7,034 bases of DNA from Planctomycetota bacterium. Lineage in GTDB: Bacteria; Planctomycetota; Phycisphaerae; Sedimentisphaerales; SM23-30. The stretch covers positions 1-7,034 of the forward strand of contig JAKQBU010000002.1 in the NCBI GenBank assembly GCA_029573975.1, written 5' to 3'. Both the position numbers and the translations under genes were made by a program. Under the pieces are notes generated by a model. It was not told the DNA's origin. It made no database searches and was given only the letters and a program-made list of their open reading frames with translations. Shown in pieces: positions 1 to 7,034 of this stretch (positions are counted from its first letter, which is position 1; each line of letters opens with the position of its first letter).

Positions 1-116
1 TACCGCCGGCCCGCCAGCCCCTCCTGCTGCAGGCGAATGGCCCGATAGCCCAGCCCGCTCAGCCCGCACAGGCTGAGGAAAATAAGAATCGATACGATTA
101 TCAAACGCCGGTACAT
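1..116 (-). CDS. Probable sensor histidine kinase, N-terminal fragment (cut by window edge)
   Basis: An open frame begins with ATG at 116 and runs off the left edge without a stop (38 complete codons). It starts MYRRLIIVSILIFLSLC, a short basic N-terminus followed by a hydrophobic segment (about residues 5-24), then an Arg/Gln/Glu-rich stretch. This fits an uncleaved first membrane helix. It starts 12 nt after the response regulator stop on the same strand, so the two are almost certainly cotranscribed. In OmpR/PhoB-type operons the next gene is usually the cognate membrane-bound histidine kinase, which is why this is proposed. No kinase domain (H-box, N-, G-boxes) is visible because it would lie outside the window. 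The ribosome binding site is weak, so the exact start is uncertain. It could also be another membrane protein. Confidence 0.55.
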   Translation of the reverse strand, partial: MYRRLIIVSILIFLSLCGLSGLGYRAIRLQQEGLAGRR

Positions 117-128
117 ACCAAACAGGTC

Positions 129-824
129 CTACTCATTTTCATATTTATAACCGGCGCCGCGCACGGTTTTAATGATTTGCGGCTCGGTGGTGTCCTTCTC
201 GATCTTTGCCCGCAGTTTGGCGATGTGCATATCCACGGTCCGCGTCCCCAGCTCCGTCATGCTCTCGCCCCAAACCTTCTCGTACAGCTCGTCCCGGCTG
301 ATAATCCGGTGGGGGTGTGCGGCGAAATACTGAATGATCTGGGCCTCGCGGGCGGTAAGCTCCACGCTGCGGCTGTGGTTCTTCACGGTCAGGGCGGAAA
401 TGTCTGCCTCCCAGCCGCCAAAAGAAAACCTCTGGCCGACCGCCCGGCCCGGACTCATCCGCCGCAATACCGCCAGGATCCGCGCCAGCAGTTCCTCCAG
501 CGAAAAAGGCTTGGTCAGGTAATCATCGGCCCCCAGATTCAGCCCGCTGATCTTCTCCTGCTCCTGCCCCTTGGCCGTCAGCATGATAATCGGCGTCTGC
601 AAACCGCTCTGCCGCCACTGTTGACACAATTGCTCCCCGCTGATCTTCGGCAGCATCAGGTCCAGCAGGATCAGATCGAACCGCCGCTCCGCCGCCAGCC
701 GCTGCGCCTCCAGGCCGTCCACCGCTTCATCTGCCGCAAAATCATGATACTCCAGAAAATCCTTCAATCCCTGCCGGATCTTCGGCTCATCTTCCACGAT
801 CAATATGTTTATTTTTGTCTGCAT
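129..824 (-). CDS. OmpR/PhoB-family two-component response regulator
   Basis: A 231-residue DNA-binding response regulator of normal length for the family. The receiver domain (about 5-120) has the acidic pair E11/D12, phosphoacceptor D55 in LLDLMLP, switch T83 and Y102, and K105 in the LTKPF motif. The C-terminal winged helix (about 130-229) has ELTAREAQII, a recognition helix around 194-208 (TRTVDMHIAKLRAKIE) and the closing VRGAGYKY. The RTVDMHI..LR recognition helix resembles PhoB-type regulators. The open frame extends upstream to 932, but the start at 824 is preferred. GGATGG lies 6 nt before it, the protein then begins directly before the first beta strand (MQTKINILIVEDE), and a longer form would run through the promoter and operator. 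ATG at 830 is the alternative. A probable sensor kinase gene follows 12 nt downstream. Likely autoregulated through the operator at 890-937 (inference). The signal sensed is unknown. Confidence 0.95.
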   Translation of the reverse strand: MQTKINILIVEDEPKIRQGLKDFLEYHDFAADEAVDGLEAQRLAAERRFDLILLDLMLPKISGEQLCQQWRQSGLQTPIIMLTAKGQEQEKISGLNLGADDYLTKPFSLEELLARILAVLRRMSPGRAVGQRFSFGGWEADISALTVKNHSRSVELTAREAQIIQYFAAHPHRIISRDELYEKVWGESMTELGTRTVDMHIAKLRAKIEKDTTEPQIIKTVRGAGYKYENE

Positions 825-860: not shown

Positions 861-889
861 ATTATACCGTATCTCGTGCCCGCCGGTAT
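861..889 (-). promoter_or_regulatory. Promoter of the response regulator operon
   Basis: A perfect TATAAT -10 hexamer lies at 866-861 on the minus strand, about 37 nt upstream of the regulator's ATG at 824. With a 17-bp spacer the -35 hexamer would be 889-884 (ATACCG), which is poor. The bipartite operator half abuts this position. A strong -10 with a poor -35 next to an activator site is the usual form of a PhoB/OmpR-activated promoter. The leader would be roughly 30 nt. Confidence 0.6.
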
Positions 890-937
890 GTAAATGTTCT
901 GTAAAAAAAGATGGTCCGGATTTTACATCCAATTTAC
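890..937. promoter_or_regulatory. Mirror-image PhoB/OmpR-like operator serving two divergent promoters
   Basis: Two copies of a bipartite element stand back to back. The left copy on the plus strand is GTAAAT (890-895), four bases, then TGTAAAA (900-906). The right copy is its reverse complement: TTTTACA (921-927), four bases, ATTTAC (932-937). Within each copy the GTAAA cores repeat every 11 bp, the half-site spacing known for PhoB/OmpR-family dimers bound head to tail. The dyad centre is 913.5, and the two -10 hexamers (861-866 and 961-966) are symmetric around the same point. The regulator encoded next door is the obvious candidate to bind here. Binding itself is inferred. Confidence 0.65.
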
Positions 938-966
938 TTGGAGTTCAAGGATTTTGATTTCATAAT
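938..966 (+). promoter_or_regulatory. Promoter of the VWA-DUF4139 genes
   Basis: A -10 like hexamer CATAAT (961-966, five of six consensus bases) lies exactly 23 bp after the right operator copy, as on the opposite side. The -35 position at 17-bp spacing is TTGGAG (938-943), weak apart from TTG, which suggests activator dependence. A second possibility is TTGATT (954-959), 16 bp, GATAAT (976-981). That is a better sigma70-like pair and may be an additional or the actual start. The leader would be about 30-45 nt. Confidence 0.5.
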
Positions 967-1017: not shown

Positions 1018-2355
1018 ATGAAAATCCGATCCAAATGCACAAAAGCAGTCCTGGTTCTAACCGTTTCCCTTTTAGGGATAAATACCGCCTGGGGCAAATC
1101 CCTTCCTTCTCCCATCGTCTTTGATCTGTCGCTGGACAAGCCTGTACTCCACGCCGATCAGCCGCAGACAGCCTATCTGCGGATCGCCCTCAAGGGACTA
1201 TGCATCGAACGCGAGCAAACCCGCCCGCCCGTCAATATCGCCATTGTGATCGACAAGTCCGGCTCGATGGGCGGCGAAAAGATCGCCGAAGCCCGCAAAG
1301 CCGCCATTATGGCCATCCAGCGTCTCAACTCTGACGACATTCTTTCCGTCGTAACCTACGATTCCAATGTCAACGTGCTGATTCCCGCGACCAAAGTCTC
1401 CGACCGGGACGCAATGGAGCGGCTGATTCAATCGATCCAGGCCGGAGGCAGTACCGCCTTATACGCCGGCGTCAGCCAGGGTGGGCGGGAACTGAAAAAA
1501 TTTCTGGAGCCGGGCCGGGTCAACCGGATGCTGCTGCTCTCCGATGGTCTGGCCAACGTCGGGCCGCAAACCCCCGACGAATTGGGCCGCTTGGGCGGCT
1601 CTCTCATCGAAGAAGGCATCTCCGTCACCACCATCGGGCTGGGACTGGGATATAACGAGGACCTCATGACCCAACTGGCTTATAAGAGTGACGGCAGCCA
1701 TTACTTTGCCGAACAGGCAACCGACCTGGCGGGTGTGTTCAACAGCGAATTTAACCGCGCCCTGGCGGTCGTCGCCCAGGAGATTCAGATCGAGATCGTC
1801 TGTCCGGCAGGGATCCGCCCCGTTCGGCTGCTGGGTCGCCAGGGCCAGATTCAGGGGCAGAACGTCAAGGCCTATATCAACCAGCTCTTCAGCCAGAGCG
1901 AGAAATATCTGCTGCTGGAAATGGAAGTGCCCCCGATGGCCGGCGATACCGCCCGGACCGTAGCTACCGTGCGGATAAATTATGGGGATATGAACACCCA
2001 TACCACGCAGGAATGGATCGGCAGCTCGGGAGTCACATTTTCCGCCGATGAAAAACGGATCGAAGCGAATACGAATACCCGGGTGACGGTCGATGTCGTG
2101 GAGCAGATCGCCATCGAACGCAATAAAATGGCCCTGCAGCTCCGGGATCGGGGAGAAACAAAAAAGGCCGAAGAAATGCTGAAGAGCAACGCCAGCTATT
2201 TAAAAGAATATGGCGCGAAGTATCAATCCAGCAAGCTGGACGAGTATGCCGAAGACAATCGCAACGACGCCGACAATCTGGATGAAAACAACTGGACCCG
2301 GCAGCGAAAGTCCATGCGCGCCTCCCAGTTCCAGCGCGAAACCCAGCAAAAATAG
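1018..2355 (+). CDS. Secreted von Willebrand factor type A (VWA) domain protein
   Basis: A 445-residue exported protein. Residues 1-26 form a Sec-type signal peptide (basic MKIRSK, hydrophobic VLVLTVSLLG core, likely cleavage after AWG). A beta-rich segment (about 30-70) precedes a VWA domain (about 72-250) with a complete metal-ion-dependent adhesion site: D79-K-S81-G-S83, T146 in GGSTALYAG, and D176 in LLLSDG. The rest is a beta-rich region (about 255-345) and a polar helical tail (about 360-445) rich in Lys, Glu, Asn and Gln. No membrane anchor or lipobox is seen, so it is probably periplasmic. It belongs to the broad YfbK/COG2304-like class. VWA domains bind protein partners through the metal, but the partner here is unknown. 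AAAGGAG (1005-1011) lies 6 nt before the ATG and fixes the start. It is the first gene of a pair with the DUF4139 gene 85 nt downstream, and is probably controlled by the divergent response regulator. Confidence 0.9.
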   Translation: MKIRSKCTKAVLVLTVSLLGINTAWGKSLPSPIVFDLSLDKPVLHADQPQTAYLRIALKGLCIEREQTRPPVNIAIVIDKSGSMGGEKIAEARKAAIMAIQRLNSDDILSVVTYDSNVNVLIPATKVSDRDAMERLIQSIQAGGSTALYAGVSQGGRELKKFLEPGRVNRMLLLSDGLANVGPQTPDELGRLGGSLIEEGISVTTIGLGLGYNEDLMTQLAYKSDGSHYFAEQATDLAGVFNSEFNRALAVVAQEIQIEIVCPAGIRPVRLLGRQGQIQGQNVKAYINQLFSQSEKYLLLEMEVPPMAGDTARTVATVRINYGDMNTHTTQEWIGSSGVTFSADEKRIEANTNTRVTVDVVEQIAIERNKMALQLRDRGETKKAEEMLKSNASYLKEYGAKYQSSKLDEYAEDNRNDADNLDENNWTRQRKSMRASQFQRETQQK

Positions 2356-2440: not shown

Positions 2441-4243
2441 ATGAAAAAAACCATCGCATTACTGATTCTTGTCCTGCTATCAACAACATATCAACTCACC
2501 TTCGCCAACGCCGCCACCACCACGGGGGCCATCTCCGAGGTTACGGTCTATCGCGGCCAGGCCCTGGTGACCCGTTCCCTCGATCTGGAGGTCCCCGCCG
2601 GCAGTTCCGAGATCGTCGTTACCGGCCTGCCCCACCAGATTGTATCCGAAAGCCTCTATGCCCAGGCCTCCGGGGACGCGATGGTTCTCAGCGTCCGCTA
2701 TCGGGAGCAGGCGGTTGAGGAGGATACCCGCGAAGAGGTCAAGCAGCTCGATGCCAAAATCGAAGACATGAATCGCCAGATCAAACATACCCAGAAAAAC
2801 CTGGAACACGGCGGCAATTTGCGGGGCCGCTATGAACCATTCTGGAACCTCTCGACGACCACCGCCAACCACGATTTCGACCGGGCTTTACTGCAATATG
2901 AACCCATCGAAAAATTGACCGGCTATCTGGAAGGGAAAATGACCCAACTCCATGAAAATGCCCTGAATCTGGAAGATCAACTGGAAGATTTGCAAAAGGA
3001 ATTGAATCTGCTGCAGCGCCAGCGGGAAGAACTGGCCGCCGGCCGTTCCCGCACCGAACGGGAAGCCGTGCTGAATATTCACAAGACCGATGACAAGAAA
3101 ACCGCCATCCAATTGAGTTACCTGGTGAATGATGCCAACTGGCTGCCCCAGTACAATCTGCGGGCCGATGCCGAACAAACCAAAGTCCAGGTGGAGTATA
3201 ACGCCATCATCCATCAGGCCAGCGGCGAAAACTGGGACGGCGTCACCCTGCGCCTTTCCACCGCCGAACCAAGCATGGCGGCCTTCGCCCCGGCCCTGGA
3301 CCCCATGAAAGTGCTGCTGGGAGCCGGTGTTTTGGGAGGCGACCGATCCAGCCAGGAGGCGAATAAGGATTCGCAGCCGGTTGCTCAGCAGTTGGAAAAC
3401 GCCCCTTCTTCGTCCTATCTGGACTTAAGCGGGCAATTCGGCAGCATTCAGCAGAATCGCCGCGTAGCCGCCGGGAAAGGGAAAGTCGCCCAGCAGGAGC
3501 TTAACCAACTGGCCACGCTAAATCAGGCCATCGAATTGCAGGTGGATGATAAAGCCCTGGGCCTGATTCAAAAGCAGGCCCAGGAGTTTGCCCGCAAAGA
3601 AGGCGTGAGTGTTTCCTATCAACTGGCCGGCAAACTCTCGCTGCCCAGCCGCAGCGACCAGCAACTGGTCACCATCGCCCGCATCGACGCCGGCGCTGCC
3701 TTTTGTTTTGTCGCCACCCCCCTGCTGACCGATTATGTCTATCTGCAGGCCGAGATGGTCAACGACAGCGATACCATCCTGCTGCCCGGCCCAGCCAGCC
3801 TGTACCGCGGCAGCGATTTTGTCGGCAAGGGTGAGATGCCCCTGGTCACCATGGGCGAAAAGTTCACCGCCGGCTTCGGCGTGGATTCCCAGATTCAGGT
3901 CACCCGCGAATTCAAGGACAAAAAGATCGAAACCCTCTGGGGCAACCGCGTCGATACCTACCATTACCGGATTGCCCTTCAAAACTACAAAAAGACCCCG
4001 GTCCCGCTGCGGCTGCTGGAACGGCTGCCCTATACCGAAGATGAAACGCTGGCCATCAGCGATCTGGAAAGCAGTGTGCCTTTGAGTAACAATGCCGAGT
4101 ATGCCGCCCACCTGAAGGACAAGGGCATCCTCCGCTGGGACCTCACCCTAGCACCCGATACCACCGGCGAAAAGGCCACCGTCGTCACCTACAGCTATAC
4201 CATGAAATACGACAATGACATGCACGTAATTTCCGCTCAATAA
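2441..4243 (+). CDS. Exported DUF4140/DUF4139 (MuiA-like) envelope protein
   Basis: A 600-residue protein of the family often annotated mucoidy inhibitor MuiA or DUF4139. A signal peptide covers about residues 1-24 (MKKTIALLILVLLSTTY..., likely cleavage near ANA). A DUF4140-like N-terminal domain follows (about 30-130: ISEVTVYRGQALVTRSLDLEV). Long charged helices typical of coiled coils lie at about 92-122 and 165-205. The DUF4139 domain (about 220-598) has WLPQYNLRAD (234-243) and GENWDGVTLRLSTAEP (262-277). It is interrupted by a polar Gln/Ser/Ala-rich insert at about 300-390, then resumes and ends with a beta-rich part (YTMKYDNDMHV). The molecular function of the family is not established; an envelope or polysaccharide-related role is only suggested by its name. 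AAAGGA lies 7 nt before the ATG. It is the second gene after the VWA gene, separated by a hairpin, and is followed by a strong terminator, so the pair looks like one transcription unit. Confidence 0.9.
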   Translation: MKKTIALLILVLLSTTYQLTFANAATTTGAISEVTVYRGQALVTRSLDLEVPAGSSEIVVTGLPHQIVSESLYAQASGDAMVLSVRYREQAVEEDTREEVKQLDAKIEDMNRQIKHTQKNLEHGGNLRGRYEPFWNLSTTTANHDFDRALLQYEPIEKLTGYLEGKMTQLHENALNLEDQLEDLQKELNLLQRQREELAAGRSRTEREAVLNIHKTDDKKTAIQLSYLVNDANWLPQYNLRADAEQTKVQVEYNAIIHQASGENWDGVTLRLSTAEPSMAAFAPALDPMKVLLGAGVLGGDRSSQEANKDSQPVAQQLENAPSSSYLDLSGQFGSIQQNRRVAAGKGKVAQQELNQLATLNQAIELQVDDKALGLIQKQAQEFARKEGVSVSYQLAGKLSLPSRSDQQLVTIARIDAGAAFCFVATPLLTDYVYLQAEMVNDSDTILLPGPASLYRGSDFVGKGEMPLVTMGEKFTAGFGVDSQIQVTREFKDKKIETLWGNRVDTYHYRIALQNYKKTPVPLRLLERLPYTEDETLAISDLESSVPLSNNAEYAAHLKDKGILRWDLTLAPDTTGEKATVVTYSYTMKYDNDMHVISAQ

Positions 4244-4269: not shown

Positions 4270-4303
4270 GGGGTAGATAGTTCTTGCTATCTACCCCTTT
4301 TTT
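4270..4303 (+). terminator. Strong rho-independent terminator after the DUF4139 gene
   Basis: A perfect 11-bp stem, GGGGTAGATAG (4270-4280) with CTATCTACCCC (4287-4297), has a 6-nt loop TTCTTG and is followed by six T (4298-4303). It begins 26 nt after the stop codon. The opposite strand has no T-run after the stem, so it acts in the plus direction and closes the VWA-DUF4139 unit. Confidence 0.95.
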
Positions 4304-4375: not shown

Positions 4376-5623
4376 ATGAATCAGACCGAATATATCATGA
4401 ATCGCAGGAGTTTTTTGACCGGCATAGCCGCCGCCGGGACCGCAATTACAGCCGGGCCGCTCTTAAAGGCCCAGGACGCCCCAGCCGCCGTCCCACTGGA
4501 CCATAAAATCAAGGCCGGTATCATCGGCTGCGGCGGACGCGGGGCCTGGATCGCCGGCCTGTTTAAGCAGCACGGCGGGTATGAATTCATCGCCGCCGCG
4601 GACTACTTCCAGGACCGGGCCGATAAGGCCGGCGCCGCCCTGGGTGTCGATAAATCCCGCTGTTTTTCGGGTCTTTCCGCCTATCAGCGGGTCATCGATT
4701 CCGGTGTGGAGGCCGTCATCCTGGAAACCCCGCCCTATTTTTTCCCCGAACATGCCGCCGCCGCCGTGCAGGCTGGCCTGCACGTGTATATGGCCAAGCC
4801 CGTCGCCGTCGATGTCCCCGGCGTCTTGAAAATCAGCGAACTGGGCAAGACCTCCGCCCAGCAGAAACGCGTCTTTCACATCGATTATCAGATGCCCACC
4901 GACCCGATAAACATCGAAGTCTATAACCGCCTCCGGCAGGGCGCTCTGGGGGATCTGCAAATGGTTTTCTCGGTCGGCAGCAGCGGGGGAGATGGAATCT
5001 CCAACGACCCGCCGTTCCGGGACACCATCGAAGACCGGCTCGTCGATTTGATCTGGGTCAACGACGACGCCCTGAGCTGCGGCTACATCGGCAATTTCGA
5101 TATCCACATTATTGACACCATCATCTGGGCCTTGGGCCGCCGTCCCGTCGGTGCCTATTCCAAAGGCAGCCGCTGCCGCAAAGACCCCCACGGCGATGCC
5201 CTGGATACCTATTTCATCACCTACACCTTTGAAGACGGCCTGGTCTGGAATCATCACAGTGCCGCCGGCCCCACCCACGACTGGCTCAAACAAGGCTCAC
5301 TGGAAGGAGCCATCCAGGGCGTTCTGGCCAACGCCCGCTTTTCCTACTGGGACAAGGCCTATGTACGCGGCGGCCCCCAGCACTTTTCCGGCGGCCCGGT
5401 GAGCGACCTCTATGAATCCGGTGCCAAACGCAATATCGCTGCCTTTTACAACGCCATCCTGGCCGGTAACTGCGCCAATGAATCGGTTGTCCGTTCTGTC
5501 GATTGCACCCTCACCTGTATCCTCGGGCGGGAAGTCGCCCACCGCGGCTGCCTCCTTACCATGGACGAACTAATCCGGGAGAACCGCCGTCTGCAACCCA
5601 ATCTCAAAGGCCTGAAAGCATAA
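4376..5623 (+). CDS. Tat-exported Gfo/Idh/MocA family oxidoreductase
   Basis: A 415-residue NAD(P)-dependent oxidoreductase of the glucose-fructose oxidoreductase/inositol dehydrogenase family. A twin-arginine signal (about 8-32: N9-R10-R11-S-F-L, then a small-residue hydrophobic stretch) implies folded export with bound cofactor. A Rossmann fold follows, with KAGIIGCGGRG (46-56). The usual EKP motif reads AKP here (M139-A-K141-P142), keeping the catalytic lysine but not the glutamate. A C-terminal substrate domain contains the conserved His/Asp region NFDIHIIDTIIW (240-251, H244 and D247 being candidate catalytic residues) and WNHHSAAGPTHDW (291-303). The substrate is probably a sugar or sugar derivative, by family analogy; it cannot be named. 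Many planctomycetes and relatives carry large numbers of such exported paralogues. The gene stands alone between two terminators, with no clear promoter seen in 4304-4364. Confidence 0.9.
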   Translation: MNQTEYIMNRRSFLTGIAAAGTAITAGPLLKAQDAPAAVPLDHKIKAGIIGCGGRGAWIAGLFKQHGGYEFIAAADYFQDRADKAGAALGVDKSRCFSGLSAYQRVIDSGVEAVILETPPYFFPEHAAAAVQAGLHVYMAKPVAVDVPGVLKISELGKTSAQQKRVFHIDYQMPTDPINIEVYNRLRQGALGDLQMVFSVGSSGGDGISNDPPFRDTIEDRLVDLIWVNDDALSCGYIGNFDIHIIDTIIWALGRRPVGAYSKGSRCRKDPHGDALDTYFITYTFEDGLVWNHHSAAGPTHDWLKQGSLEGAIQGVLANARFSYWDKAYVRGGPQHFSGGPVSDLYESGAKRNIAAFYNAILAGNCANESVVRSVDCTLTCILGREVAHRGCLLTMDELIRENRRLQPNLKGLKA

Positions 5624-5761: not shown

Positions 5762-6511
5762 TTACCACATTTCCCGTTCATCGGCGAAGGGACCGGCGGA
5801 TCCTTTGGTTTTTTTCGCCTTATCGCGGGCTTTCAGGATCGCCCCGGCAATCGCGATATCCTCCTCGCTGGTGATCTTGATATTGCTGGTAGTCCCCTCA
5901 ACCACCTGGACCGGAATCCCCAGCGCCTCCACCAGTTGCGCATCGTCGGTAATCTTCTCCTTCACCGACTCGATATTTTCATACGCCCGGCGAATAATCT
6001 CCGGCTTGAACACCTGCGGCGTCTGCGCCTCCCACATTTCCGTCCGGTCCATGGTTTTGGCGATAATATTTTGGTCGCCCACCCGCTTGATCGTGCCCAC
6101 CAGCCGGTGCGCCAGAATCGCGGCCCCGCTCTGGGCGGCCGCGGCAAAGACCGCGTCAATCTGCTCCGCCGTCACACACGGCCGCACCGCATCATGCAGG
6201 GCAATCAGGTTCACGCCTTCTTTTACTTCCGCCAGCAGCTTCCGAACCGTTTTATACCGCTCGGCGTCACCCAGAATCACCTTCACCCCGTGAAACCCGA
6301 CACTGGCCCCCCACTTGATCTGAAACAGCTCTTCCTCGTCCGCCGGGATTGCCAGCACCACCTGGCCCACATCCTCCCGGTCGGCAAACCGTTCCACCGT
6401 CCGCAAAAAAACCGCCCGCCCGTCTATATCGCAGAACTGCTTCTTCCGTTTCCCCTTGAACCGGGTACTGGCCCCCGCCGCCGGAATCAATACCGCTACT
6501 TTATTCGCCAT
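5762..6511 (-). CDS. ispD: 2-C-methyl-D-erythritol 4-phosphate cytidylyltransferase
   Basis: A 249-residue enzyme of the MEP (non-mevalonate) isoprenoid pathway, transferring CMP from CTP to methylerythritol phosphate in the cytoplasm. The nucleotide-binding N-terminus is VAVLIPAAGASTRF (5-18, with R17), then KKQF with K24 in place of the usual PKQF. Further family motifs are LHDAVRP (105-111), DRTEMWEAQTPQVF (155-168, with R156), ITDDAQLVE (187-195) and GTTSNIKITSEEDI (206-219, with K212). The residues matching the CTP-binding Arg/Lys and the substrate-binding Arg and Lys are present. The region usually reading R-x-x-S-V is AERYKTV (83-89), so this is a divergent member. A charged tail of about 30 residues follows the last motif. 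The start at 6511 places the first beta strand at residue 4; the ribosome binding site is weak. ispF and other MEP genes are not adjacent in this window. It is convergent with the oxidoreductase gene. Confidence 0.93.
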   Translation of the reverse strand: MANKVAVLIPAAGASTRFKGKRKKQFCDIDGRAVFLRTVERFADREDVGQVVLAIPADEEELFQIKWGASVGFHGVKVILGDAERYKTVRKLLAEVKEGVNLIALHDAVRPCVTAEQIDAVFAAAAQSGAAILAHRLVGTIKRVGDQNIIAKTMDRTEMWEAQTPQVFKPEIIRRAYENIESVKEKITDDAQLVEALGIPVQVVEGTTSNIKITSEEDIAIAGAILKARDKAKKTKGSAGPFADEREMW

Positions 6512-6691: not shown

Positions 6692-7034
6692 TTAAGAAAG
6701 GGCGGGGGCGGTGTAGATGAGGTAGAGGCCGGCCAGGAGGATCAGGACTCCACAGGCCTTTTTCAGGATCAAGGCGCCTTTAGATTTTTCGTTCCAGTTG
6801 AGATAACGCTGGACTACTTCTGTAAATGTTCCAGCAAAAACAATTACCGAACAATGGCCCAGGCCGTAGAGCAGCAGGAGCAGGATGCCGTACCCTGGCT
6901 GGGAGGAAGCCAATCGGAAAGTGACGCCCAGCATGGGGGCCATAAAGGCGAAGGTGCAGGGACCCAGGGCAATGCCGAACACCAGGCCCAGAATAAAGGC
7001 GGCCAGGGGGCCTTTGCGTTTCATGCCGACCTGG
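6692..7034 (-). CDS. CcdA/DsbD-like membrane protein, C-terminal part (cut by window edge)
   Basis: An open frame of 113 residues enters from the right edge and ends at TAA 6694-6692. The ATG at 7024 is in frame with upstream sequence and is probably internal. The segment has three hydrophobic helices, roughly residues 9-32, 43-66 and 88-106 counted from that methionine. The first carries GIALGPCTFAFMAPML, with C23 at the position of the fourth-helix redox cysteine of the CcdA/DsbD transmembrane fold (compare SPCTTAPL in DsbD). The second carries LYGLGHCSVIVFAGT, with an additional cysteine. In this family such proteins carry electrons across the membrane to extracytoplasmic thioredoxin-like partners, for example in cytochrome c maturation. 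A CcdA-like transporter (for example the ArsG type, which I recall as having a similar GHCSVIV segment) is an alternative. The N-terminal half with the first cysteine is outside the window. Confidence 0.8.
   Translation of the reverse strand, partial: QVGMKRKGPLAAFILGLVFGIALGPCTFAFMAPMLGVTFRLASSQPGYGILLLLLYGLGHCSVIVFAGTFTEVVQRYLNWNEKSKGALILKKACGVLILLAGLYLIYTAPALS

Follow-up and report, generated by a model that had tools for sequence, protein, structure and literature searches.

The region between a response regulator gene and a divergently transcribed gene for a von Willebrand factor A (VWA) domain protein raises the question of whether one two-component regulator drives transcription in both directions. 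The DNA analysed here, which we call the window, is 7034 nucleotides long. On its minus strand it encodes a 231-residue response regulator (129..824, ATG at 824-822) with receiver and winged-helix domains, for which Pfam profiles PF00072 and PF00486 both scored above their cut-offs, confirming that a regulator of the PhoB/OmpR type is encoded next door. Beyond it lies the start of a sensor histidine kinase gene (1..116, minus strand), recognized from its sequence and cut by the window end; Pfam gave no match to this very short piece, and a kinase-like frame follows the regulator gene on its 3′ side in the near-identical locus L001. That locus comes from a Planctomycetota metagenome-assembled genome (MAG), the closest genome among those fetched, and its regulator is 98% identical to that of the window.

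The plus strand encodes a 445-residue VWA-domain protein with a signal-like start (1018..2355, PF00092), preceded by the ribosome site AAGGAG at 1006-1011, and then a 600-residue DUF4140-DUF4139 protein of the MuiA family, also with a signal-like start (2441..4243, PF13598 and PF13600), which scored above the cut-off of NCBIfam TIGR02231. The four proteins closest to the VWA protein are 88-92% identical to it, one of them being named Planctomycetes bacterium ADurb.Bin412, and some sources name VWA proteins ‘Ca-activated chloride channel family’. The gap that separates the VWA gene from the DUF4139 gene contains a strong hairpin (2369-2402; z of −3.1 for 2356-2440), and its sequence differs in the close relative L001. 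A second strong hairpin (4270-4297), followed by a T run and resembling an intrinsic terminator (4270..4303, plus strand), stands 3′ of the DUF4139 gene, and the Gfo/Idh/MocA oxidoreductase gene on its far side (4376-5623, plus strand, PF01408, with an RRSFL export-type start) is therefore probably outside the operon. Two further minus-strand frames were recognized by eye, an IspD-like cytidylyltransferase (5762-6511) and a truncated CcdA-like membrane protein (6692-7034).

Mirrored operators and promoter type

The sequence-only reading of this gap had described two outward-facing copies of the 17-mer TTTTACA-N4-ATTTAC, and both are exactly as described: a putative regulator-side operator on the minus strand (890..906, read from 906 to 890) and a putative VWA-side operator on the plus strand (921..937). 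Each is followed by 23 bp and a −10 hexamer, TATAAT for the regulator promoter (861..866, minus strand) and CATAAT for the promoter of the VWA operon (961..966, plus strand), correct to the base, and operators and hexamers share the symmetry centre 913.5. The half-site period of 11 bp, also as claimed, is found in the window and in its relatives, and corresponds to the direct repeats expected of OmpR/PhoB-type regulators. The plus strand at the regulator-side repeat reads TGTAAA-N5-TGTAAA (889-905), equivalent to GTAAA-N6-GTAAA, from which the VWA-side copy differs at one base. With up to two mismatches allowed, TTTTACANNNNATTTAC occurs nowhere in the 7034 bases but at the two operators; in 200 shuffles of the window it occurred on average 0.06 times, and never twice.

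The poor −35 sequences noted on both sides were borne out: at a 17-bp spacer the hexamers are ATACCG on the minus strand and TTGGAG on the plus strand. Among relatives, matches to TTGACA at this spacer averaged 1.3 of six positions in 50 loci for the regulator side and 2.3 of six in 32 loci for the target side, where about 1.5 of six would be expected by chance. A generic promoter scan of the window listed neither divergent promoter, as is expected where the −35 is missing; it did give weak matches at 954-981 and 948-920. The distance from the end of the operator to the −10 hexamer, in turn, is held at 22-23 bp. Among 86 sites fetched regardless of spacing, a set that includes the regulator and VWA loci, a near-consensus −10 lay at 22 bp in nine and at 23 bp in 22, and no more than four fell at any one of the other distances between 0 and 59. 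On the target side, three of 32 hexamers at 23 bp were not −10-like (GTAAGC, GTATTC and ATAGTT). Activators that bind immediately 5′ of the −35 region have this geometry, and regulators bound there usually activate. Both promoters appear to be of the activator type, with a good −10 and no recognizable −35, the operator position being suggestive of activation rather than proof of it.

We consider it highly probable that the gap serves a two-component system as its common control region, in which the phosphorylated product of the neighbouring regulator gene would bind both sites and activate its own operon together with the VWA-DUF4139 operon. The adjacent kinase would phosphorylate the response regulator (824-129), presumably on an envelope signal, and the phosphorylated regulator would bind each TTTTACA-N4-(A/T)TTTAC site as a head-to-tail dimer. 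Centred at about −44, just upstream of the −35 region, each dimer would recruit RNA polymerase to a promoter with a good −10 and no −35, the regulator-side site driving the regulator-kinase operon in positive autoregulation and the other driving the VWA-DUF4139 operon in the opposite direction. Because 31 bp, or about three helical turns, separate the site centres and the gap is nearly fixed, the two dimers probably lie on one face of the DNA, where they may bind cooperatively.

The sign of regulation is read here from the position of the sites, and a gap this tight would also suit a repression complex; the regulator might bind both sites and repress, or activate on one side and repress on the other. 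We regard this as unlikely, because the sites lie upstream of the −35 region and not over the −10 or the transcription start, and because the −35 is poor on both sides, as it is at promoters that depend on an activator.

Conservation of the regulator-side site

Aligning orthologous loci, as the sequence-only reading had proposed, showed that the repeats, their spacing and the −10 are kept while the intervening DNA diverges. We searched the 161 available genomes of the order to which locus L002 belongs, by the record titles of L004-L006 the Sedimentisphaerales, for the regulator at E ≤ 1e-90 and found it in 54. One of these loci (L227), with only 13 bp of upstream DNA, was set aside; in 52 of the remaining 53 the regulator-side site and −10 are present with at most two mismatches in total, the spacing being exactly 23 bp in 51 and 22 bp in one (L220). 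The exception, L228, lacks the site within its 236 bp of upstream DNA. In 1080 dinucleotide-preserving shuffles the best result was three mismatches, reached twice, and two or fewer were never reached. Mean pairwise identity over 50 aligned loci is 0.965 for the 13 specified bases of the site and 0.974 for the −10, as against 0.447 for the 23-bp spacer and 0.343 for the 14 bp beyond the site, common descent accounting for part of this conservation in loci that all come from one order and are in many cases related. The −10 of the regulator gene is TATAAT in 46 of these 50.

The loci were also approached from the other side, by a profile search for the VWA protein, from which the best 80 of 566 confirmed loci were taken. 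In eight of these 80 a regulator at least 64% identical to that of the window lies on the opposite strand no more than 2.1 kb upstream (the match in L030 being to a 128-residue piece), and on inspection all eight carry the mirrored sites. In three of them (L005, L006 and L030) a gene for another exported protein separates the VWA gene from the site; Pfam gave no match for this protein (its copy in L110 was scanned), and a likeness to DUF4139 was seen by eye.

Whether the neighbouring regulator, rather than another member of its family, owns the sites bears on the whole reading. Paralogues of the OmpR family are many and bind similar repeats, and promoter-linked sites are also found in 22 of the 107 genomes of the order in which this regulator was not found, so that the neighbouring gene might be merely a target of a different regulator. 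Yet the regulator carries the site in its own promoter in 52 of the 53 usable loci, and promoter-linked sites occur in 52 of the 54 genomes in which it was found, as against those 22 of 107, a count in which the strict cut of E ≤ 1e-90 must be allowed for, since at least four of the 22 (G008, G184, G189 and G226) show a regulator gene behind the site. MAG contigs and their titles may also carry binning errors. On this evidence we judge ownership by a different regulator to be quite improbable, and the assignment of the sites to the neighbouring one is retained below.

The opposing site and the divergent gene

The opposing site was sought over 73 bp in 52 loci, a set from which the window, L227 and L228 were left out. 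With up to two mismatches it was found at a gap of 13-15 bp in 31 (14 bp in 27, 13 bp in two and 15 bp in two) and at a 48-bp gap in one more, L213, which has a DUF4139 gene; in the other 20 it was absent within the 73 bp. Among the 31, tblastn (E ≤ 1e-5) matched a VWA, DUF4139 or other exported gene on that side in 29; three of these matches (L176, L179 and L189) were weak and covered about 114 residues of a VWA domain, the proteins concerned being of the VIT/VWA kind by clustering and L250 being the same place as L189. The remaining two have an ECF sigma gene (L182) and a gene for an exported protein with no Pfam match (L197). For the 20 loci lacking the opposing site, tblastn of usually about 1.5 kb matched none of the VWA, DUF4139 or other exported genes, which is weak evidence for the absence of a divergent gene in the two with less than 500 bp upstream (L191 and L218).

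The opposing site thus tracks a gene of the VWA/DUF4139 type, from which it follows that the regulator keeps its own site whatever its neighbour and that the second site, to judge from this co-occurrence, belongs to the divergent gene. Together with the conserved site, spacing and −10, the co-occurrence supports the proposal, made from the window by itself, that one regulator serves its own operon and the VWA-DUF4139 genes.

Candidate regulon across the order

Scanning genomes with the motif, another proposal of the sequence-only reading, showed the site 5′ of further, unlinked genes as well, which encode exported proteins or ECF sigma factors. The plain pattern TTTTACAN4TTTTAC occurs in 94 of the 161 Sedimentisphaerales genomes and, in a sample of 120 from the class, in 13. 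The full architecture, site plus −10 at 22-23 bp, was found at 184 sites in 74 of the 161 genomes, as against five for the reversed pattern. In the close genome G001 the plain TTTTACAN4WTTTAC occurs six times against two for the reversed pattern, modestly above the control at the level of a single genome; the six are the two mirrored operators and four others, which lie before genes for an ECF-like sigma factor, a HEAT-like protein and a CheX-like protein (the latter two recognized by eye) and, in one case, before no open reading frame. The A/T-rich half-sites do lie where promoter UP elements lie, but the chance that they are such elements, or chance repeats with no dedicated regulator, is negligible given 13 bases at 0.965 identity between flanks at 0.34-0.45, shuffles that never reach the match and the excess of 184 sites over five reversed.

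Among the sites listed, at least 146 are distinct and 140 have an open reading frame behind them, which is the regulator itself in 47 and another gene in 93. These 93 targets, the clusters of which were assigned with Pfam from one representative each, include a cluster of 25 VIT/VWA and VWA proteins, DUF4139 protein clusters of six and two (the second below the Pfam cut-off), 11 copies of an unnamed exported protein and 10 ECF sigma factors, together with TPR, SIMPL, trypsin-PDZ (HtrA-like), HEAT-repeat and ARPP-1 proteins. A signal-like N terminus was found in 77 of the 83 targets, again among the sites listed, that are neither regulator nor ECF sigma factor, compared with 179 of 321 other open reading frames, by a crude rule with a high background. 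Since these positions predict that the site drives genes of both kinds, those of exported proteins and those of ECF sigma factors, the system is most likely a regulator of envelope homeostasis.

At eight of the ECF sigma genes (L098, L105, L131, L142, L297, L301, L302 and L304) a shared TGTCAACC element stands between the site and the −10, about 7 bp from the latter. A reading of CTGTCAACC in the ECF promoters as a −35 was rejected, since 7 bp is too close to the −10. In G003 the repeat also stands 5′ of genes for a phosphatidylserine decarboxylase and a CDP-alcohol transferase, as it does for their likenesses in G002; these repeats (L107 at 3479; L108 at 17 374 and 17 819), which occur twice in one genome, have no −10 at 22-23 bp.

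Comparison with known systems

No description of this motif for this gene set was found among the open-licence titles and abstract openings searched, in agreement with the sequence-only reading. Those found for DUF4139/DUF4140 concern eukaryotic parasites, and none joins DUF4139 with von Willebrand. Comparisons were made with better-known members of the OmpR family. PhoB is the top NCBIfam match of the window regulator, at 215.3 bits against a cut-off of 296.2. The half-sites of PhoB share the 11-bp period but read TGTCA, in contrast to TTTAC here, and no phosphate genes were recognized among the target representatives scanned with Pfam; PhoB of the phosphate regulon was dropped, the regulator scoring below its cut-off.

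The layout resembles that of cpxRA-cpxP in Escherichia coli, where a regulator-kinase operon likewise diverges from the gene for an exported protein, and where the Cpx regulon is concerned with the envelope. In the cpxRA-cpxP gap the TTTAC repeat reads toward cpxP as the VWA-side site does toward the VWA gene, but that gap has one perfect TTTAC-N5-TTTAC with a 10-bp period, whereas the window has two mirrored copies with N6 and an 11-bp period, and the divergent genes here encode VWA and DUF4139 proteins rather than CpxP. The window regulator is 38% identical to E. coli CpxR and scored 133.9 against the CpxR NCBIfam cut-off of 341. Identity of the site with the CpxR box itself was rejected, a scan with the N5 spacer giving two to three mismatches in all eight site-bearing loci. 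That box is GTAAA-N5-GTAAA, searched with spacers of N4-8, in PMC12802237; the N6 of the window departs from the box but falls within the range searched.

For WalR/VicR (YycF) of the Firmicutes, PMC4168254 gives the box TGTWAH-N5-TGTWAH, which the regulator-side site (889-905) matches exactly and the VWA-side site with one mismatch. The WalR regulon is one of the cell envelope, like the regulon suggested here. The gene surroundings of WalR/VicR are unlike those of the window, and the regulator scored 165 against the YycF cut-off of 340. Finally, in the dedicated sortase system of proteobacteria (TIGR03787 and TIGR03788), too, a VIT/VWA-type protein has a response regulator of its own. Against TIGR03788 (cut-off 551.65) the target representative L300 scored 221.4 bits and the VWA protein of the window 49.7, both below, and the sortase-system regulator TIGR03787 was rejected, the regulators of three VWA-kinase-regulator operons (L012, L024 and L027) scoring 112.6-144.8 against 335.7.

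Being below the PhoB, YycF and CpxR cut-offs, the window regulator would work like these proteins and, as tested, is a member of none of their families. What the sequences describe is a two-component operator laid out like that of cpxRA-cpxP, with a predicted envelope regulon and probable autoregulation.

VWA-kinase-regulator operons in other phyla

The remaining 72 of the best 80 VWA loci (within L007-L080) are arranged differently; their record titles name gamma- and deltaproteobacteria, Myxococcota, Verrucomicrobia, Nitrospinaceae, other Planctomycetes and more. Downstream DNA of 2.6 kb or more was available for 60 of them, and in 46 of these a kinase gene and a regulator gene share the strand of the VWA gene, the regulator lying no more than 3 kb away. 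In the stretch that begins 450 bp before the VWA gene and ends 60 bp into it, TTTACA-N5-TTTACA was found with no, one and two mismatches in 14, 20 and 16 of the 72 loci, respectively, all 34 instances with at most one mismatch being on the VWA strand. The 50 of 72 with at most two mismatches compare with 71 of 1440 shuffles, 12 of 72 for the reversed pattern and eight of 637 random segments of the loci. By context, the repeat was present in 36 of the 46 loci with kinase and regulator, in five of the 14 without and in nine of the 12 without room. Alignment of the 46 non-redundant among these 50 revealed four half-sites in an 11-bp register (TTTACA, TTTACA, a weak TNTNAC and tCTgAC), with TAnAnT about 21 bp past the last.

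In 48 regulators from the other-phyla loci the recognition helix has SRx(L/I)DQ (L in 47, I in one) where the window regulator has TRTVDMH, both kinds retaining R..D.HI..LR or something near it, and the window regulator is 33-41% identical to regulators of other phyla over at least 218 residues, no closer a likeness than the 38% it shows to E. coli CpxR. We advance only tentatively, at somewhat less than even chances, the account that the VWA protein and a two-component pair of the PhoB/OmpR type make up an ancient module for surveillance of the envelope, present across many phyla and with TTTACA-N5-TTTACA as its operator. In Proteobacteria, Myxococcota, Verrucomicrobia, Nitrospinota and others, four half-sites would stand in tandem 5′ of VWA-kinase-regulator operons; in the Sedimentisphaerales they would have been rearranged to two pairs in mirror orientation, which fire a regulator operon that diverges; and the VWA/DUF4139 proteins might act back on the kinase in the way that CpxP acts on CpxA. 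The distribution may reflect one ancient module or repeated recruitment, both of which remain candidate accounts.

For an order of Planctomycetes represented here mainly by metagenome assemblies, these results give a regulator, its candidate binding site and a promoter rule. They would place the VWA and DUF4139/MuiA families, exported proteins of unknown role, under a two-component system of the envelope type, and, through the element found across phyla, the role of the VWA gene could be tested in marine bacteria in culture, for example Marinobacterium or Neptuniibacter (L027, L050).
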